Source: Desulfosporosinus youngiae DSM 17734 | GTDB taxonomy: Bacteria > Bacillota > Desulfitobacteriia > Desulfitobacteriales > Desulfitobacteriaceae | Length of the DNA stretch: 64,000 bases | NCBI RefSeq assembly: GCF_000244895.1 | Contig: NZ_CM001441.1 | Span: forward strand, 558,001-622,000 | Reading direction: 5' to 3' | Part shown: positions 16,281 through 42,683 of the stretch, piece after piece | Layout of the letters: the number at the start of each line of letters is the position of its first letter | Numbering within the stretch: the stretch's first letter is position 1 | Translations under genes and position numbers: made by a program | The notes under the pieces: generated by a model | Seen by the model: the letters and a program-made list of their open reading frames with translations, nothing else | Databases searched by the model: none | What the model was told of the DNA's origin: nothing

Positions 16281-16450
16281 TGAGTCGTTCCTCCTTTAAT
16301 CTATCCATTAGGTGATATGATATTGTGTTGACCAAAGCTTTAAACATTTGCTTTCATTGTGCTCTTAGTTTGCTTAGAAATTAAACGGTTAATGCTTATA
16401 TATAAACAGAATTTGCATGAAATTTATGGAAAATAGTTTGTGTCAGGTTG

Positions 16451-16459
16451 TGTTATAAT
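16451..16459 (+). promoter_or_regulatory. extended -10 promoter of the Cache-HAMP-HTH gene
   Basis: TGTTATAAT is a perfect TGn-TATAAT. It lies ~160 bp before the GTG start, so the transcript would have a long AT-rich leader (16470-16600), in which I see no structure. The rest of the 16281-16617 gap shows only the divergent gene's ribosome site. Confidence 0.5.
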
Positions 16460-16617
16460 TAGTCTAAAAAGCATGGTTGAAAGAATGGATGAAATCATAA
16501 ATATTTATTTTTTTCAATAAATATTGTCTAAATAGAGGTTTTATTAATATTATTATCGAAGTTACTCTAAATATTTTGTTTGAATTAATAGATATTAAGC
16601 CGAAAGAGGTGAACTAT

Positions 16618-17730
16618 GTGCGTTCGCTAAAACATCAAATTCTTATATTTTTGTTGGGGTCGCTTATACTATTGGCATCCAGCTTTCTTGTTGTCATGGG
16701 GTTCTATATGAAAGACCGGGCTGTAGCCACGGCTATCATCAAAGTTAAAACAGATTTGGCAACCTGTGAGGAAATCCTGGATAAGACATATCCCGGCCCA
16801 TGGTCGGAGCAAGCCGGAAATCTGTATAAAGGCTCCATAAAAATTAGCCTTAATAATGATATAGTAGACCATTTGGCAAATCTTACAGGGGACACAGTAA
16901 CCATATTTCTAGGAGACACGCGAATCGCTACCACGGTCCGCGGCTCAAACGGGGAACGGGCGATTGGGACTAAGGTTGCTCCCAATGTGGCCCAGACAGT
17001 ACTTCAGGATGGTCAGACATATGTAGGAGAGGCTAATGTCGTAGGCGAATGGTACCAAACGGGTTACATTCCATTGCGCACAGAAAACGGGAACATCATC
17101 GGGATTTTTTACGTCGGCATTTCGCACGCCTATGAGCAGGAGATTTTCACTCAATCCTTAATTAAAACGGCTGGGATTGGGTTAGTCTTAACCTGTTTGG
17201 TAGCTCTTCTTACGTGGTTTTTCCTTCAGAGAGCTATCGTTTATCCTCTGCACAATATCATGTTAGCAACCCGGGACGTAGCAACCGGTCACATTACCGA
17301 GAAAGTAAAGGTTTCCGGAGCCAAGGAAATTGGAGAGCTTGAGGATGCCTTCAACCAAATGGTGGAGCAGATTCAATCTCTGACAGAGGAAATTAGCCGT
17401 ATGACCTGCAACAGCCCGGAGAATGAACCAATAGAAACCAAAAATTTGCTGACTGCGGAATGTCCGCCAATACCCATCCCAAATATTGTTGGAAGAATCG
17501 GAGAAGCGGGGTTGCCTAAGGGTTTGCATCAAGCCACTTTAGGGCAAATAACTCAATTTTTGCAAGCCAACCGGCGTCCTCTCTCTGCTGAGGAAGTTGC
17601 CGAAGGAGTTAAGCTGACAAGGGTAACTGTACGTCGTTACCTCGAGTTTTTAGAACATAGCGGGGCATTAAGATCTGAACAGAAATACGGCACAGTTGGC
17701 CGGCCTGTTAAGCTATTTATACCGTTGTAA
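16618..17730 (+). CDS. membrane one-component regulator: Cache sensor, HAMP, CitB-type HTH
   Basis: About 370 residues: TM1 (~6-28), an extracytoplasmic single-Cache region (~29-180; PGPWSEQAGNLYKGS, TVTIFLGDTRIATTV, GEANVVGEWYQTGYIPL, GNIIGIFYVGIS), TM2 (~188-210), HAMP (~211-262), a linker, then a C-terminal HTH. The last ~60 residues (LSAEEVAEGVKLTRVTVRRY, then KYGTVGRPVKLF) match the DNA-binding end of CitB/DcuR response regulators. There is no histidine kinase, receiver or MA domain. The simplest reading is a membrane-bound transcription factor whose ligand signal goes directly through HAMP to DNA. GTG at 16618 follows AGAGGTG; a TTG at 16576 is less likely. Confidence 0.85.
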   Translation: MRSLKHQILIFLLGSLILLASSFLVVMGFYMKDRAVATAIIKVKTDLATCEEILDKTYPGPWSEQAGNLYKGSIKISLNNDIVDHLANLTGDTVTIFLGDTRIATTVRGSNGERAIGTKVAPNVAQTVLQDGQTYVGEANVVGEWYQTGYIPLRTENGNIIGIFYVGISHAYEQEIFTQSLIKTAGIGLVLTCLVALLTWFFLQRAIVYPLHNIMLATRDVATGHITEKVKVSGAKEIGELEDAFNQMVEQIQSLTEEISRMTCNSPENEPIETKNLLTAECPPIPIPNIVGRIGEAGLPKGLHQATLGQITQFLQANRRPLSAEEVAEGVKLTRVTVRRYLEFLEHSGALRSEQKYGTVGRPVKLFIPL

Positions 17731-17762
17731 AAAACGGCCCTCGATGAGGGCCGTTTTTTATT
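17731..17762 (+). terminator. rho-independent terminator
   Basis: AAAAAACGGCCCTC and GAGGGCCGTTTTTT pair around GAT. This is a textbook terminator directly after the regulator stop. Confidence 0.92.
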
Positions 17763-18001
17763 ATGATGAGAATTGTTGTCTAAATTGACTGATTAGGCAA
17801 CAAATTCACTTTTTCATAATTAATAAAATTTTCTTTACTCACAAAACGCTTATTTAAAGTACATAAACACGACAGGCAGAGAGAAGAACGTTAAACTTAT
17901 GGCATAGACATTATTCTTGATTCCATTACCTTAATAGAAGACATTATATAGAAGAGAGGTGTAACTAAATAGAAGTATGTTCGTAATAAAGGAGGATTCT
18001 T

Positions 18002-18490
18002 ATGTGTGACGCGGCTTCGCCGAATCCATTTGTCAAAAAGCTAGATGACTATATCGACAGTTTGACCCACAAAAAGGAGAATCTTATTGGGGTCCTGCAT
18101 TATGCTCAAGAAATATACGGATACTTACCTGATAATGTACAGTGGCATATTGCCCAGAAGCTTGATATACCCTCCGCGACAGTCTATGGTGTTGTGAGCT
18201 TCTACTCGTTTTTTACGATGGTACCGAGAGGGGAACACGTTGTTAACGTATGTACAGGGACCGCTTGTTTTGTACGAGGGGCCGAAAAATTAAAAAATGA
18301 GCTCGAAAATCAGCTTAAGATTAAAGCTGGAGAAACCACTCCGGATAATCTCTTTACTTTAGAAACTTTGCGCTGCGTTGGAGCCTGCGGCCTCGCTCCA
18401 GTCATGATCGTCGACGGTGAAGTGCATGGACGCATGCAAAATCCCCAAGACATTAATGAGGTTCTGGCAAAATATCGCCCAGAGAGTTAA
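18002..18490 (+). CDS. hndA: [FeFe] hydrogenase NuoE-like [2Fe-2S] subunit (HndA/HydC type)
   Basis: 162 residues, a single NuoE/thioredoxin-like domain. The four [2Fe-2S] ligands are in CTGTACF (C-x4-C) and CVGACG (C-x3-C), and the helix bundle contains IGVLHYAQEIYGYLPDNVQ. It passes electrons between the flavin subunit and the other centres. AAAGGAGGATTCTT precedes the ATG. It is the first gene of a three-gene hydrogenase operon. A paralog serves the formate dehydrogenase at 47940. The symbol follows the Hnd nomenclature by architecture and was not tested by alignment. Confidence 0.9.
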   Translation: MCDAASPNPFVKKLDDYIDSLTHKKENLIGVLHYAQEIYGYLPDNVQWHIAQKLDIPSATVYGVVSFYSFFTMVPRGEHVVNVCTGTACFVRGAEKLKNELENQLKIKAGETTPDNLFTLETLRCVGACGLAPVMIVDGEVHGRMQNPQDINEVLAKYRPES

Positions 18491-18505
18491 GAAGCGTGCC
18501 AAGAG

Positions 18506-18532
18506 TGTCAAGGGGACCGTCCCCTTGACACA
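18506..18532. repeat. GGGGAC-type intergenic palindrome
   Basis: GTGTCAAGGGGA and its complement TCCCCTTGACAC flank CCG. This perfect 12-bp inverted repeat sits between hydrogenase genes 1 and 2. Related repeats occur at 32017, 44549, 54091 and 58949. No T-tract follows, so it need not terminate the operon. Confidence 0.8.
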
Positions 18533-18576
18533 GGAGTCACGACCAAAGAAGGTCACCGAAGGAAGGGAAAAGCCAT

Positions 18577-20463
18577 ATGAAACTCTTAAATATCGATGCA
18601 TTAAATGCATTACGAGCCGACAATCTCAAACTTCTTGAATCCCGGCAGGCTGTCGATTCGATTAGCACAGAAAACACCCAAGCTTTAGTAAGGCATGTTA
18701 TGGTCTGTGGAGGTCCTGGTTGTCACTCCTCGGGCAGTCCCAATATAGCCAAACGGCTGGAAGAGGAGCTCAAGGGATTTGGGCTGTCTGAACAGATTAA
18801 AGTCTTTCAACCAGGATGTTTTGGTTTTTGTGAAAAGGGCCCGATGATTCAGATTTTCCCCGATAATGTCACTTATTGTGAGGTTTCGGCAGATGACGTA
18901 ACGACCATCATCGAAGAGCACTTTGTAAAAGGTAATATTGTAGAACACCTTCTTTTTACGGACCCAAACACCAAAGAACGGTTTGCCGCTGATATTCCTT
19001 TTTACAAAGGACAGCTTCGCATAGCGCTGCGCAACGTTGGTTACATTGCCCCGGAAAATATTCTTGAGTATATTGCCGCTGACGGTTATCAGGCTTTAGG
19101 CAAAGTTCTTTTTCAGATGACTCCTTTGGAGGTCATTGGCGTCCTGAAAGACAGTGGACTGCGGGGACGGGGCGGCGCAGGTTTTCCTACCGGCCTGAAA
19201 TGGGAACTGACTCGTAAAAGCCCGGCTGATCAGCGTTATATCATATGCAACGCTGATGAGGGGGACCCAGGTGCTTTCATGGACCGCTCCGTCCTGGAAG
19301 GCGATCCTCATAGCGTTTTAGAGGCTATGATGATCGCGGGTGTAGCCATTGGAGCTTCTGAAGGTTATATTTATGTCCGGGCTGAATATCCTGCTGCGAT
19401 TCACAGTTTACAAGTTGCCATTGCCCAGGCAAGAGAATACGGTTTACTTGGCAAAGATATTTTAGGCAGCGATTTTTGCTTTGATATTGAGCTTAAACTC
19501 GGAGCCGGCGCCTTTGTCTGCGGTGAGGAAACGGCACTGATCCATTCCATTGAAGGCGCCAGAGGAGAACCTTCCGTCAAACCGCCTTTTCCCGCCCAAC
19601 AAGGATTGTGGGGAAAACCAACCAGTGTCAACAATGTGGAAACCTTAGCCAATATCCCCCCAATTATTTTAAAGGGAGCAGGTTGGTTTTCGGCAATTGG
19701 CACGGAAAAGAGTAAAGGCACAAAAGTGTTTGCTTTAGCTGGCAAAGTAAATAATGTCGGACTGGTGGAAGTTCCAATGGGAACAACCCTCCGGCAAATT
19801 ATTTTCGACATTGGCGGAGGAATTAAGCAGCGCAAGACCTTTAAGGCGGCACAAACCGGAGGGCCCTCCGGCGGATGTATTCCAACCAGGTATTTAGATT
19901 CCCCCATTGATTATGAATCCTTAGCAGCAATTGGCTCGATGATGGGTTCCGGAGGACTCATTGTCATGGATGAAGATGATTGCATGGTCAATATAGCCAA
20001 GTTCTTCCAGGAGTTTACGATGGATGAGTCCTGTGGCCGATGCACGGCCTGTCGGGTGGGAACCAAACGCCTTTATGAAATCTTGACTAAGATTACGGAA
20101 GGCAAAGGGACTCTGGAGGATTTAGATAATTTGGAGAAATTGTGTCATATCATTAAGGACACAGCACTGTGCGGATTAGGGCAGAGTGCGCCCAATCCGA
20201 TCCTGTCTACTTTAAAATATTTCCGCGAAGAATACATTGCGCATGTCGTCGATAAAACCTGTCCGGCCGGCGTTTGTAAGAGCTTGCTAAAATACGAAAT
20301 CACAGAAAAGTGCGTAGGGTGCGGCCTGTGCGTAAAGAAATGTCCTATGCATTGCATCACCGGCACCACCAAGAAGCGCCACATCATCGACCAAGAACGC
20401 TGCCTGAAATGTGGGGCATGTATGGAACAATGCCGCGTCGTTGGCGCCATCATCTGCCATTAA
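18577..20463 (+). CDS. hndC: [FeFe] hydrogenase NuoF-like flavin subunit (HndC/HydB type, N-terminal HndB-like domain)
   Basis: 628 residues. An N-terminal thioredoxin-like [2Fe-2S] domain (~38-125; CGGPGCHSSG, PGCFGFCEKGP) is equivalent to a fused HndB. The NuoF core (~140-540) has the FMN/NAD sites GLRGRGGAGFPTG and CNADEGDPGAFMDR and the N3-type cluster SCGRCTACRVGT. The C-terminus has two [4Fe-4S] ferredoxin motifs (CVGCGLCVKKCP, CLKCGACMEQCR). It binds NAD(P)H and, in bifurcating homologues, splits electrons between NAD(P) and ferredoxin. ATG follows GGAAGGG after an 86-bp gap holding a palindrome. The catalytic gene follows 24 bp later. Confidence 0.93.
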   Translation: MKLLNIDALNALRADNLKLLESRQAVDSISTENTQALVRHVMVCGGPGCHSSGSPNIAKRLEEELKGFGLSEQIKVFQPGCFGFCEKGPMIQIFPDNVTYCEVSADDVTTIIEEHFVKGNIVEHLLFTDPNTKERFAADIPFYKGQLRIALRNVGYIAPENILEYIAADGYQALGKVLFQMTPLEVIGVLKDSGLRGRGGAGFPTGLKWELTRKSPADQRYIICNADEGDPGAFMDRSVLEGDPHSVLEAMMIAGVAIGASEGYIYVRAEYPAAIHSLQVAIAQAREYGLLGKDILGSDFCFDIELKLGAGAFVCGEETALIHSIEGARGEPSVKPPFPAQQGLWGKPTSVNNVETLANIPPIILKGAGWFSAIGTEKSKGTKVFALAGKVNNVGLVEVPMGTTLRQIIFDIGGGIKQRKTFKAAQTGGPSGGCIPTRYLDSPIDYESLAAIGSMMGSGGLIVMDEDDCMVNIAKFFQEFTMDESCGRCTACRVGTKRLYEILTKITEGKGTLEDLDNLEKLCHIIKDTALCGLGQSAPNPILSTLKYFREEYIAHVVDKTCPAGVCKSLLKYEITEKCVGCGLCVKKCPMHCITGTTKKRHIIDQERCLKCGACMEQCRVVGAIICH

Positions 20464-20487
20464 GGTATCCCTGAAGGAGGACTCCAT

Positions 20488-22230
20488 ATGGATATTCAAC
20501 TAACGATTAACGATATAGTGCTTAAAGTACCAGAAGGAACGTCCATTTTAGACGCCGCCCGGACCGTAAACATAGATATTCCAACCTTATGCTACTTAAA
20601 GCTTAATGAAATGCACTACAATAATAACATCGCTTCCTGTCGAGTTTGTGTTGTCGAAATAGAGGGCCGCCGCAATCTGGCTTCCTCCTGCTCAACTCCC
20701 GTAGCAAATGGCATGGTGGTCAGAACGGATTCGCTGCGTGCTATTCAGGCCAGACGAGCTATGGTTGAACTTCTCCTCTCTGACCACCCTAAATCTTGTC
20801 TGACCTGTGCAAAAAACCAAGATTGTGACCTTCAATCCTTAGCCTCGGAATTAGGGGTACGCCATATCTCTTATGAAGGGGAAGAATCCGAGTTTGAAAT
20901 CGACCGGTCAAGTTCTTCCATTGTTCGGGATCCTAACAAATGTATTCGTTGCCGTCGTTGCGAAACCATGTGCAACGAGGTACAGACGGTTGGCGTTTAC
21001 TCCGCTGTAGGACGTGGTTTTGAGACGGTAATTAAAACAGCCTTTGACCTGCCCCTTAGTCAAACCGCTTGCACGTTTTGCGGACAATGTATCGCAGTAT
21101 GTCCAACTGGTGCATTGACCGAACTGGATCAGGTCGATAAAGTTTGGAAAGCTCTCAACGATCCTAATCAATTTGTCGTTGTCCAAACCGCGCCAGCCGT
21201 ACGGGTCGCGCTAGGGGAGGAATTCGACTTAGAACCTGGGACGATTGTGACCGGTAAGATGGTCGCCGCTCTTCGACGACTTGGTTTTGACCGAGTCTTT
21301 GATACGGATTTTGCTGCTGACCTGACAATTATGGAGGAAGCAACAGAGCTTGTGCACCGCATAAAACATGGTGGACGTTTGCCTCTTCTCACAAGTTGTT
21401 GTCCTGCCTGGGTTAAATTCTTTGAACATCAATTTCCAGATCTCTTAGACATTCCTTCAACCTGCAAATCTCCTCATGAAATGTTAGGGGTTTTAATCAA
21501 AAGTTACTATGCGAGAACGCTGGGGATTGACCCCAAAACTATTACGGTTGTTTCCGTCATGCCTTGTGTTGCTAAAAAATACGAAGCAGCTCGTCCTGAA
21601 CTTTCGCAAGGCGCGGAAACTGCGGATGTGGACATCGTCATCACTACTCGTGAACTTGCTCGCATGATTCGGGAAGCCAGCATTCATTTTGATCACCTCA
21701 AAGACCAGGAATTTGATCACCCCTTAGGGGAATCAACCGGTGCTTCCGTTATTTTTGGAGCAACCGGTGGAGTGCTCGAAGCCGCCTTGCGGACAGCTTA
21801 TGAGGTGATCACTGGCGAAACCTTAGAAAAAGTGGAGTTTGAAGCCCTCCGGGGAATGGATGGGCTTAAAGAAGCTGTAATCCCAATCGCTGGACAAGAT
21901 TATCGAGCTGCGGTTATCCATGGTTTAGGTAATGCTCGTAAGGTTCTTGAGAAAATACAAGCAGGGGAAAGCAATTATGACGTAATCGAGATTATGGCTT
22001 GCCCCGGAGGTTGTATCGGTGGAGGCGGACAGCCCTATCATCATGGAAACCTGGATATTCTTGCAGATCGAGCGGGAGCCTTATACCGCGAAGACCGCGC
22101 TAAGCCTTTGCGGAAGTCGCACGAAAATCCGGCCATTATAGGTCTTTATAAGGATTATCTGGGCGAACCCTATGGAGAAAGAGCCCATAAGCTGCTGCAT
22201 ACCAGCTATGTGCCGCGTAAGAAGATCTAA
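20488..22230 (+). CDS. hndD: [FeFe] hydrogenase catalytic subunit (HndD/HydA type)
   Basis: 580 residues. An N-terminal plant-type [2Fe-2S] domain (CxxxxxNNNIASCRVCVVE) precedes a His-Cys3 [4Fe-4S] site (HPKSCLTCAKNQDC), two [4Fe-4S] motifs (CIRCRRCETMC, CTFCGQCIAVCP), then the H-cluster domain with signatures L1 TSCCPAWVKFFE, L2 MPCVAKKYEA and L3 MACPGGCIGGGG. The small-subunit domain is fused at the C-terminus (YRED...HKLLHTSY). It reduces protons or oxidises H2 together with the two upstream diaphorase subunits. GAAGGAGGA precedes the ATG. Maturases HydEFG are not in this window. Confidence 0.96.
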   Translation: MDIQLTINDIVLKVPEGTSILDAARTVNIDIPTLCYLKLNEMHYNNNIASCRVCVVEIEGRRNLASSCSTPVANGMVVRTDSLRAIQARRAMVELLLSDHPKSCLTCAKNQDCDLQSLASELGVRHISYEGEESEFEIDRSSSSIVRDPNKCIRCRRCETMCNEVQTVGVYSAVGRGFETVIKTAFDLPLSQTACTFCGQCIAVCPTGALTELDQVDKVWKALNDPNQFVVVQTAPAVRVALGEEFDLEPGTIVTGKMVAALRRLGFDRVFDTDFAADLTIMEEATELVHRIKHGGRLPLLTSCCPAWVKFFEHQFPDLLDIPSTCKSPHEMLGVLIKSYYARTLGIDPKTITVVSVMPCVAKKYEAARPELSQGAETADVDIVITTRELARMIREASIHFDHLKDQEFDHPLGESTGASVIFGATGGVLEAALRTAYEVITGETLEKVEFEALRGMDGLKEAVIPIAGQDYRAAVIHGLGNARKVLEKIQAGESNYDVIEIMACPGGCIGGGGQPYHHGNLDILADRAGALYREDRAKPLRKSHENPAIIGLYKDYLGEPYGERAHKLLHTSYVPRKKI

Positions 22231-38387: not shown

Positions 38388-40121
38388 TTATTTCATAGTA
38401 GGAATCATCCAGGGGAAGACATAAGCTTGCAGCCAGACGAGGATACCCATCAGCATGGCCAGCACAACGCTGTGCCAGAAGACCTTACGGAAGATAACTC
38501 CGATATTTCTGACCCCTTCGTCGGCATCTGCATAACACGCGGCTGTCGCAACTGTAATACTCTGAGCGTCAATCATTTTACCCATAACCCCACCGGTACT
38601 GTTGGCAGTAACCATTAAGAGCGGGTCTAGATTCAGCTGTTGAGCGGTTACTAACTGAAGGTTACCAAACAGTGAGTTTGAAGCGGTGTCACTACCTGTC
38701 AGGAATACACCCAACCATCCAATCATAACTGCAAAGAAGGGATAGAGTGCACCGGTTTTAGCGAAGGCTAATGCCATGACAACGTCAGTTCCAGCATATT
38801 TTGTCATGTAGCTTAAACCGATAACTAAAGAGATAACGGAAAGAGGAATTTTCAGACGAACGATTGTAGTAACGAGAATTTCTTTCCACTGGGCAGCAGT
38901 AACTCTGAGGAACAGAATACCGGTGATGAACGCAGCAATAAGGATCCCGGTTCCTGCCATAGTAAGAAGATTGAAGCTGAATATAGCTGCTTCTCCTGTT
39001 TTTGCAACAGCTTCAGCCGTTACAGGTGCTGTTTTGAAAACTAAACCATGGAGGAAGGGAACTTGGAAACTCGGATTAAAGAGAGAATTCAACCAGGCCT
39101 TGATGCTTGGAACTCCCCATAGTCCAACAAAGATTGCCAAGAAGACCCAAGGCATCCATGCTTGTAAGAGAACCGGAAGAGGATGTTTGGGAATAGCTTT
39201 TGGTTTCCCGGGATCTCTTCCTTCTAATTTAGCATAAACCATTTCGTTCGTAATGATATTTTTAGGTTTCCATAGTTTCAAGAAGATTGCGGTGATAACA
39301 ATACTCATGATACCTGATCCGATATCGACGAGCATCGTCATTTGAGCTTCAGCCATTAAGAACTGGGTAACAGCGAAGGAGGCACCTGTAACAAGGATTG
39401 CCGGCCATACTTCAAAGATTTCCTTCAATTTCCCTTTTTCCATTACGGTCATAGTAGCGACCAACCAAAAGGGGATGAGGATCGAGAAGAATGGCAATTG
39501 TCTGCCAGCCATCATAGTGATCATGCCATCTGGAATACCAGTGACTTTGGCAAGGGTCAGAACCGGAGTTCCGATTGCTCCCCAGGCAACAGGTGCTGTA
39601 TTAGCGATCAAGCAAACGACAGCAGCGGTTAAGGGACGGAAACCCAGACCGACCATGATTGCACCGGCCACGGCGACAGGAGTACCAAAACCTGATGCCC
39701 CTTCGATAAAGGCTCCAAAGCTGAAGGAAACGAGCAGGGCTTGCAAGCGTCGATCCGCGGTGATTCCGGCGATCGAGTCTTTAACAATTTCGAACCTACC
39801 GGTAACAACTGTCATCGTGTAAAGGAAAATTGCACCGAAGACAATCCAGCCGATTGGGAATAAACCGCTTATGACACCATATCCAAAGGCTGCCGCAGCC
39901 GAAGATGCGGGCATCCCCATAACAAAGATACAAATTACAAAGGTCACGGCGACTGCAATAGCTGCAGCATACGGAGCATAAATACCTAAGATTTTCTCGC
40001 CATTTTTGGCTTTATGAGGGTGAAGTGCTAAGAAATAAAGCAGGGTTAAAATAGGTACCGATGCAAGGAAGACGGAAAACCAAAAGTTGCCTGTTGGATT
40101 ATAATTTTGCAAGTACGTCAA
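38388..40121 (-). CDS. lldP: L-lactate permease (LctP/LldP family)
   Basis: 577 residues with about 13 membrane segments. Family features include GFGAFIEGASGFGTPVAVAG (~135-153), NTAPVAWGAIGTPVLTLAKV, and GVFLTGSDTASNSLFGNLQL near the C-terminus. It imports lactate (and glycolate in some species) with protons. The TTG start follows AAGGAGG by 9 nt. It is a solitary gene; the lactate dehydrogenase genes are not within the window. Three TGTTTCA heptamers at exact 17-bp spacing lie ~175 bp upstream (40297-40342) and could bind a regulator. Confidence 0.95.
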   Translation of the reverse strand: MTYLQNYNPTGNFWFSVFLASVPILTLLYFLALHPHKAKNGEKILGIYAPYAAAIAVAVTFVICIFVMGMPASSAAAAFGYGVISGLFPIGWIVFGAIFLYTMTVVTGRFEIVKDSIAGITADRRLQALLVSFSFGAFIEGASGFGTPVAVAGAIMVGLGFRPLTAAVVCLIANTAPVAWGAIGTPVLTLAKVTGIPDGMITMMAGRQLPFFSILIPFWLVATMTVMEKGKLKEIFEVWPAILVTGASFAVTQFLMAEAQMTMLVDIGSGIMSIVITAIFLKLWKPKNIITNEMVYAKLEGRDPGKPKAIPKHPLPVLLQAWMPWVFLAIFVGLWGVPSIKAWLNSLFNPSFQVPFLHGLVFKTAPVTAEAVAKTGEAAIFSFNLLTMAGTGILIAAFITGILFLRVTAAQWKEILVTTIVRLKIPLSVISLVIGLSYMTKYAGTDVVMALAFAKTGALYPFFAVMIGWLGVFLTGSDTASNSLFGNLQLVTAQQLNLDPLLMVTANSTGGVMGKMIDAQSITVATAACYADADEGVRNIGVIFRKVFWHSVVLAMLMGILVWLQAYVFPWMIPTMK

Positions 40122-40296: not shown

Positions 40297-40342
40297 TGTT
40301 TCATTATTTTCATTGTTTCAGTAACCATGTTGTTTCATTATT
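40297..40342. promoter_or_regulatory. three TGTTTCA heptamers at 17-bp intervals upstream of lldP
   Basis: TGTTTCA begins at 40297, 40314 and 40331, exactly 17 bp apart, and the first and third share TGTTTCATTATT. Read on the lldP strand they are TGAAACA repeats ~175-220 bp upstream of the start. Phased direct repeats suggest a multimeric regulator site. The remainder of the 40122-40615 gap is AT-rich and shows nothing else I can support. Confidence 0.45.
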
Positions 40343-40653: not shown

Positions 40654-42683
40654 CCCGACTTTTACAGTTAACATAGTAAATTAGTAAGGAACAACTAAAA
40701 AAGTTCCCCATTGACGCAGATTTCCGCGTTTTTTTGCAGACATAATTGATGTTATGCTAACGATGTGCTACTATATGTGTAGGGTGATTGTAACATGGTC
40801 AAAATAGACAAAAGAACGACGGCGGATGGAACACCTCGGACACAGGTGCGAGTGGTCGAGGGGTATCGTCCCGGCCCAGGAATGCCAACCAAACAACGAA
40901 CGATCCGAGACTTCGGTTACCTTGAAGACCAAAGTGACCCCGAAGTTTTCATGGCCAAAGTCAAGGAATTTAACGCCAATTACAGAGCAGAAAACGTTCC
41001 GCTTCGAATAGAGGCACCTGGAACTGCAAGGATGTACTGCGAGGAAAACCGACGGCAGAACTACGGATATAAATTTCTGGAGGCCGTCTATGATCTGCTT
41101 GAAATCAAGTCATTTATCAAGGGCTATGAGGCATCCCACAAGTTCCGAGGGGAGTATTCGCCCAGCGACATTTTTAAATTTCTGGTGTTGTTAAGAATTC
41201 TCCGCCCGGATTCCAAGCGCGCCTCCTGCCAGATGAAGAACGGTTTCTATGGAATGCGTACGGACTTCACGCTGCCGGATGTCTACCGATCGCTTGACTA
41301 TTTCGAAGAGTTCGGGGTAGAGTTGCAGCGACATTTGAATAAGCGTGTCAAGGAAACCATTGGTCGTGACCTTTCCTACGCATTCTATGACGTGACCAAC
41401 TATTTCTTCGAAATAGACTGTCCCGATGGCGAGGACGACCTGCGGAAAAGGGGTGTATCGAAAGAGCACCGCACCGACCCGATTGTCGCGATGGGTCTTT
41501 TCATGGATTCGAACGGACTTCCGGTCAGCATGTCGATTTTCCCTGGCAACACAAGCGATTCCCTCACGCTTCAGCCGACCATGAAGGACGTCAAGGAATC
41601 CTACGGGCTTGGCAGGCTGGTTGTGGTCGCCGACAAAGGGCTCAATTCGTCGAAGAATATTGACGTGATCCTAAACCAGGGCGACGGTTTCGTTTTCTCA
41701 CAGATACTAAAAGGGAAAAAGGGACAGCGCTACAATGAAAAACTGTTTGATAAAAACGGGTGGACGTCGAACGAGAGCGGTACCTACCGATATAAGCTGT
41801 TCACGGAAGACTATGAGGGAAAAGACAAGGACGGAAAAAAAGAACGCCGGACGAGGAACGTGCTTCTGTATTGGCGCAAGGCCGAAGCTGACAGGGCGAG
41901 GCGCAAGCGGGAGGAAAAGCTTGAAAAGGCCGCGCGCTCCGTCAAGAACAATGCCTATGGCATTAAAAAGGGCGTCGACGAATATACCAAAGAAACCCTC
42001 GTTGACAAGAAGACCGGTGAGGTTCTGGAAACTACGAAAAAGCTGCGCAGCGTGGATTTGGAAAAGGCGGAGAACGATGCGAGATATGACGGCTATTTTT
42101 GTATCATTACCAGCGAACTTGACTATGATGAGCGAAAAATGCGTCAGGTGTATGGCGGTCTTTGGCGGATAGAGCAGTCGTTTAGGATGATGAAAACGGA
42201 TTTTGATGCCAGACCTGTGTTCGTCCGTAAGAATGAGCATATCCGTGCCCATTTCCTGATCTGTTTCGTCGCACTCCTCGTCCTCCGAATCATTCAGCAC
42301 CGTATGGGAGAAAAGGCATTGTCAGCCGAGCGCATAGCAAGAGCGCTGGATGCCGCAACATGTCGGGTTTTGAAGGGCGGCATCATTCACCTTGACGATG
42401 TCGGCGGTGCGATCGCGTTTCAAACGATCCGTAACAAGAAAGGCAACCTTGTGGATGCGCTGGCCTTTTCAGACGAAGATGAAATCGCGCTAGATTACAA
42501 GTTAATTCAGGATACCTATGGTACAGATTGCTACAACATCTATTTTCGGCAAGAGGCGTTTAATAAGTTTTTGAAAACTATTGCCTTAGCATAACAAAAT
42601 TTAGATACACTCATATCAAGAAAAAGCCCACAGTTTCAACAACTACGGGCTTTTTGCATTCTTCAAACTGTAAAAGTCGGGTT
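40652..42683 (+). mobile_element. complete IS1634-family insertion sequence (~2.03 kb)
   Basis: The ends are perfect 18-bp inverted repeats: AACCCGACTTTTACAGTT (40652-40669) and its complement (42666-42683). They enclose one transposase gene and, at about 42624-42655, a terminator-like stem (AAGCCC/GGGCTTTTT). 38-bp direct repeats flank the element. The interior is visibly more GC-rich than its neighbours. Intact ends and ORF suggest recent insertion and possible activity. Confidence 0.93.
40795..42594 (+). CDS. IS1634-family DDE transposase
   Basis: 599 residues, intact. The N-terminal domain (MVKIDKRTTADGTPRTQVRV) and the IS4-superfamily catalytic core are visible: YDVTNYFFE (first Asp, ~199), VVVADKGLNS (second Asp, ~273) and the Y-(2)-R-(3)-E-(6)-K-like block YGGLWRIEQSFRMMKTDFDA (~450-470). 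An insertion of basic, Lys-rich sequence (~355-430) separates the second Asp and the Glu region, as is usual for IS1634. Start ATG at 40795; no strong ribosome site is visible. It mobilises the surrounding IS by cut-and-paste. Confidence 0.94.
   Translation: MVKIDKRTTADGTPRTQVRVVEGYRPGPGMPTKQRTIRDFGYLEDQSDPEVFMAKVKEFNANYRAENVPLRIEAPGTARMYCEENRRQNYGYKFLEAVYDLLEIKSFIKGYEASHKFRGEYSPSDIFKFLVLLRILRPDSKRASCQMKNGFYGMRTDFTLPDVYRSLDYFEEFGVELQRHLNKRVKETIGRDLSYAFYDVTNYFFEIDCPDGEDDLRKRGVSKEHRTDPIVAMGLFMDSNGLPVSMSIFPGNTSDSLTLQPTMKDVKESYGLGRLVVVADKGLNSSKNIDVILNQGDGFVFSQILKGKKGQRYNEKLFDKNGWTSNESGTYRYKLFTEDYEGKDKDGKKERRTRNVLLYWRKAEADRARRKREEKLEKAARSVKNNAYGIKKGVDEYTKETLVDKKTGEVLETTKKLRSVDLEKAENDARYDGYFCIITSELDYDERKMRQVYGGLWRIEQSFRMMKTDFDARPVFVRKNEHIRAHFLICFVALLVLRIIQHRMGEKALSAERIARALDAATCRVLKGGIIHLDDVGGAIAFQTIRNKKGNLVDALAFSDEDEIALDYKLIQDTYGTDCYNIYFRQEAFNKFLKTIALA

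Follow-up and report, generated by a model that had tools for sequence, protein, structure and literature searches.

The stretch of the Desulfosporosinus youngiae DSM 17734 genome analysed here, called the window, comprises 64,000 nucleotides (NZ_CM001441.1, positions 558,001 to 622,000). At positions 16618-17730 (+), it carries a gene for a membrane protein that joins a chemoreceptor-like sensor directly to a predicted DNA-binding domain. Such a protein raises the question of what is sensed outside the cell and which genes are controlled from the membrane. The analysis makes it likely that the protein is a transmembrane one-component transcription factor that responds to formate and activates the adjacent operon, which is here the hydrogenase operon at 18002-22230.

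Domain organization of the regulator

The regulator gene begins with a GTG start codon at 16618, which is preceded by the ribosome site AGAGGTGA, and encodes a 370 amino acid protein whose stop codon ends at 17730. The regulator domains, the promoter features and the hydrogenase operon described below all lie on the + strand. Hydropathy and the AlphaFold model place one transmembrane helix (TM1) at residues ~8-30 (16639-16707) and a second (TM2) at residues ~183-205 (17164-17232). Between them lies an extracytoplasmic sCache_3_3 sensor at residues 76-176 (16843-17145; PF17202, 2.1e-36), which scores 124.9 bits against a curated cut-off of 28.8. A HAMP domain is found at residues 202-253 (17221-17376; PF00672, 3.6e-12). 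It is followed by a disordered linker at residues 262-297 (17401-17508), with a pLDDT below 50 and a length that differs between relatives. According to profiles and the structure model, the protein ends in a DcuR/DpiA-like winged HTH at residues 299-369 (17512-17724). The sCache_3_3, HAMP and HTH_11 Pfam matches all exceed their curated cut-offs, and the Pfam profile search gave no match to HisKA, HATPase, Response_reg or MCPsignal. The regulator is a membrane-bound protein of the one-component type, with an extracytoplasmic sensor, transmembrane segments and a predicted DNA-binding domain in one chain and without phosphorelay domains. The initial annotation had proposed a Cache-HAMP sensor and a CitB/DcuR-type HTH in one membrane protein that lacks histidine kinase, receiver and MA domains. 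Pfam domains, hydropathy and the winged-HTH model bear out this architecture, and none of the three absent modules gave a Pfam match. A survey of domain architectures found the same layout, in a single ORF, in 81 non-identical full-length members, which form the set of relatives used here.

The C-terminal ~60 residues had been likened to the DNA-binding end of CitB, and profile searches and structure prediction of residues ~300-370 partly agree with this. HTH_11 matches residues 310-358 (E 4.9e-6) with 26.8 bits against a cut-off of 25, and the DcuR model NF007750 matches residues 299-366 (2.4e-10), as a partial match only. HTH_64, a DpiA-like HTH, reaches 22 bits in the window protein, which is under its cut-off of 27, and passes the cut-off in a paralogue of the same genome and in relatives L085 and L141. 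AlphaFold models a winged HTH at residues 305-369, with a pLDDT of 87 when the HTH is modelled alone. The model has three helices and a two-strand wing, and its fold resembles that of winged helix regulators. Another protein encoded in this genome, a CitB-type response regulator, is 51% identical to the regulator over the HTH. A profile search of the PDB with the HTH alone returned weak matches only.

The hydrogenase operon and its predicted promoter

The predicted target operon (18002-22230) consists of a NuoE-like gene (18002-18490), a NuoF-like gene (18577-20463) and an [FeFe] hydrogenase gene of group A6 (20488-22230). A strong hairpin with a T tract at 17727-17763 (-26.6 kcal/mol, z -7.8) is the likely terminator of the regulator gene; therefore, transcription of the hydrogenase genes is expected to start from a separate promoter. 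A predicted sigma-A promoter lies at 17869-17897, with a -35 box ACGACA (17869-17874), a 17-bp spacer and a -10 box TAAACT (17892-17897), and it is conserved in relatives. A simple promoter and terminator scan detected neither this promoter nor the hairpin, which was found by folding.

Alignment of the intervals upstream of the hydrogenase operons of relatives revealed a conserved block ending in ACGACA-N17-TAAACT, and a closely similar block stands in front of FocA in FocA-linked Desulfosporosinus loci. Motif search placed a predicted binding region at 17812-17865, with TTTCTTTATTTACATA-like repeats from 17812, 17830 and 17850, the last of which is weak. De novo search of 53 dissimilar intervals recovered TTTCTTTATTTACATA, which occurs mostly in tandem with a 20-bp spacing. 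In many of the downstream operons of relatives, this tandem element immediately precedes the -35 box. The log-likelihood of the motif was 303, compared with 67-78 in shuffles, and a matrix built from hydrogenase promoters only beat all 100 dinucleotide shuffles in 18 of 44 FDH and FocA promoters and in 1 of 80 control regions upstream of the regulator, although these statistics are partly non-independent because the promoters of close relatives have a common ancestry. The hydrogenase-trained matrix gave no clear match in many distant FDH and FocA promoters. In the most distant families, a match is mostly missing, which would be expected if the site had drifted or was not shared.

Across both strands of the 64 kb window, the best site is at 17830, and the region at 17812-17865 before the hydrogenase operon is the single strong element. 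A lower-scoring match at 40299, near the 5' side of an opposite-strand lactate-permease-like gene (38388-40121), was taken as chance. A transposase-like ORF (40795-42594), recognized by eye, also lies near that gene. Genome search with a strict hydrogenase-type pattern, allowing up to three mismatches, found this promoter as the sole match. The corresponding search with an FDH-type pattern gave no match and also missed the FDH promoter of the paralogue itself, so a pattern of this stringency does not argue against other targets.

A weak -35 box with tandem sites directly in front of it is a typical activator arrangement. The regulator probably acts as an activator because its tandem sites stand right upstream of the conserved ACGACA-N17-TAAACT. 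A formate-sensing repressor, whose winged HTH would occupy the tandem sites until formate releases it, is the opposite reading. The sign of regulation cannot be supplied by computation, and the weak third repeat (17850-17865) ends near the -35 box. However, the sites lie upstream of the weak -35 box and not over it, which is the usual place of an activator, and repression is considered unlikely.

The sensor and its predicted ligand

Among solved structures, 8py0 (2.8e-14) and 8py1 (2.9e-11) match the sensor best in sequence, and they are also its top Foldseek matches. Their entry titles describe chemoreceptor sensor domains in complex with formate. In the VIA ranking of the sensor, 8py0 has a Z of 19.3 and 8py1 of 18.2, and CitA comes next with 12.2. 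The sequence and the model suggest a sensor of the formate-binding sCache_3_3 type, which is clearly more similar to formate chemoreceptors than to either CitA or DcuS. A CitA/DcuS-type sensor or a chemoreceptor input had been considered initially; the chemoreceptor type was retained, and the CitA/DcuS type was rejected owing to its weaker match.

The predicted formate pocket (16921-16971) is composed of R102 (16921-16923), T105 (16930-16932) and T118 (16969-16971), all of which align with 8py0. These residues form R-x2-T-x12-T, and their spacing is identical to that of R142, T145 and T158 of PacF, whose alteration affects formate binding (PMC12501870). For an sCache_3_3 domain in which the reported formate residues are present, another group has assigned formate as the ligand by experiment (PMC12415202). 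The R/T/T set is kept in 76 of the 81 relatives. It is also common among sCache_3_3 domains and occurs in one of two MCPs of the same genome that were checked; thus, it favours formate but is no proof. In L030, the formate residues are degenerate and the HTH is conserved, yet the gene adjoins NuoEF, which speaks against the formate reading.

The genes next to the regulator were assigned with the support of profiles. FdnG-FdnH-type formate dehydrogenase operons, mostly FdnGHI-FdhE, are preceded by 32 of the 81 relatives, HydABC-type NuoE-NuoF-HydA operons with an [FeFe] hydrogenase of group A6 by 20 (window included), and FocA-type channels by 14. Four relatives (L090, L093, L135 and L143) are divergent from an operon of a twin-arginine [FeFe] hydrogenase, an FdnH-like FeS protein and NrfD, and one further relative adjoins hypB-hypF-hypE. 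These formate and hydrogen neighbours recur across families of the phylum. In the paralogue, the formate dehydrogenase alpha subunit carries a Tat signal, and TGA stands at its selenocysteine codon position. On the tree of the relatives, the context label switches at least 14 times, which indicates that the link to formate and hydrogen genes was kept through several partner changes.

A sub-branch in which the Arg is replaced by Cys is found at L097 (5916-7040), L098 (2546-3670 and 6104-7249) and L099 (5748-6875). These four members adjoin MauE/DoxX and UGSC-family genes. When contig ends were left out, 69 of 73 R/T/T members had formate or hydrogen neighbours, compared with none of the four Arg-to-Cys members (Fisher p 0.0002 with L030 put in the non-R/T/T group). 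This correlation counts as about one event and is suggestive only, because the four members form one clade. The sub-branch probably has a different ligand and regulon.

The same protein could control the same targets in response to another small carboxylate or anion, such as acetate, nitrite or bicarbonate, or to a redox cue. Cache sensors switch ligands easily, the Cys sub-branch has lost the formate Arg, and FNT channels are able to carry nitrite too. HydABC itself is not a formate enzyme, which counts against the formate reading. In contrast, the nearest structures are formate complexes, R102/T105/T118 is conserved, and the neighbours are formate dehydrogenase and FocA-type channels, which makes a different ligand quite unlikely.

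Proposed mechanism

Formate outside the membrane would bind the sCache_3_3 domain via R102, T105 and T118. TM2 and HAMP would relay the signal in a chemoreceptor-like manner, and the relay would rearrange dimerized winged HTH domains at the C-terminus. This pair, anchored to the membrane, would then bind the tandem TTTATTTACATAA-like repeats directly upstream of the weak sigma-A -35 box and activate the neighbouring operon, in the window the NAD(H)-linked [FeFe] hydrogenase operon. The paralogue would control an FdnGHI formate dehydrogenase that contains Sec and is exported by Tat, and relatives would control the FocA formate channel. The formate-binding step is proposed from the conserved residues and the solved homologues, and the DNA-binding step from the promoter element.

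A long variable linker separates HAMP from the HTH, and regulated proteolysis could free the HTH as a soluble factor. However, most members retain HAMP, a point in favour of a conformational relay, and no conserved protease partner gene was found in the neighbourhood. Release by proteolysis is therefore judged improbable.

The divergent hexaheme cytochrome gene had been suggested at first as the target. It is the divergent neighbour of the regulator in the window and six related loci, and the interval at 16281-16617 on the cytochrome side carries conserved elements of its own. A search of this interval, however, found no copy of the tandem element, those seven are the only surveyed loci with this neighbour, and most relatives are without the cytochrome. 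The suggestion was thus not upheld, and there is only a slim chance that the regulator controls the cytochrome gene, solely or additionally. In the cytochrome promoter region (window; L009-L013 and L035), a TGACCA-n4-TGGTCA palindrome occurs in relatives and only half of it is retained in the window. This region may be the target of another regulator.

Family and distribution

Full-length relatives occur in most surveyed Desulfosporosinus genomes, in six of the nine genera of the family and in a second family of the order, and further ones are scattered across many other families of the phylum. The paralogue in the same genome is 57% identical over residues 2-369. The idea that a frameshift or assembly error joined two genes can practically be dismissed, because the single frame recurs in 81 distinct full-length relatives and in the paralogue, and no supporting point was found.

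Taken by itself, the sensor half is similar to many sCache-HAMP proteins with lengths of ~540-650 amino acids, which is chemoreceptor size. The MCPsignal domain is present in MCPs L003 and L004 and absent from the window protein. The simplest history would be that a chemoreceptor sensor gained a CitB-type output that replaced the MCP domain. In L032 and L033, HAMP is degenerate while the HTH is conserved. Locus L015 (6001-10027) has two tandem regulator copies, the first separated from the second by FocA and the second followed by hydrogenase genes, an arrangement that suggests duplication of the regulator plus its promoter. For the family as a whole, we lean towards a widespread Bacillota group in which a formate chemoreceptor with a CitB-type winged HTH output acts from the membrane, with no phosphorylation step, as a direct activator of formate dehydrogenase, formate channel and [FeFe] hydrogenase operons, and in which the Arg-to-Cys branch has a new ligand and new targets.

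Comparison with known systems

In the regulator, as in CadC and ToxR, a single chain senses on the outer side and is predicted to bind DNA in the cell interior. CadC and ToxR both have an N-terminal OmpR-type winged HTH and one TM, with no Cache and no HAMP, whereas the regulator has a C-terminal HTH, two TMs and no Trans_reg_C match. The early comparison with CadC and ToxR, as a similar layout built from different modules, is consistent with this. FhlA of E. coli provides formate-responsive control of formate and hydrogen genes. It is a cytoplasmic sigma-54 activator, whereas the regulator is membrane-bound and stands beside sigma-A-like promoters. The response regulators CitB, DcuR and DpiA have a C-terminal HTH that the one of the regulator resembles, but the regulator has no receiver domain and no phosphorylation site, and its HTH is fused straight to the sensor. 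The formate chemoreceptors 8PY0 (Oscillibacter ruminantium), 8PY1 (Asticcacaulis benevestitus), PacF, McpF and Atu0526 share the TM-Cache-TM-HAMP order and the formate residues, and 8PY0 and 8PY1 are the nearest in sequence and fold. In these receptors, the C-terminal module is an MCP signalling domain and the output is control of motility, whereas the regulator ends in a predicted DNA-binding winged HTH. ArnR and ArnR1 of Sulfolobus are also one-component regulators bound to the membrane and combine a putative HAMP with an HTH, but they differ in their N-terminal HTH, two C-terminal TMs, other sensor and archaeal motility targets (PMC6396743).

Significance

Formate chemoreceptors, CitB-type HTHs and membrane one-component regulators are known separately, and ArnR pairs a putative HAMP with an HTH. 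An open-licence literature search found no description of a transmembrane one-component formate regulator. To our knowledge, no formate-sensing transcription factor has been described in Bacillota, and we know this task otherwise only from separate sensor and DNA-binding proteins or from an intracellular sensor. There are predictions for the ligand, receptor residues, target operons and short promoter element alike, which makes the whole signal path testable. The regulator would show, in a clean natural example, how a chemoreceptor input can drive transcription directly via HAMP, and it may serve as a single-gene formate biosensor. Electron exchange between anaerobes runs mainly through formate and H2. 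If the proposed reading is true, the expression of hydrogenase, formate channel and formate dehydrogenase would be matched to the formate outside the membrane.
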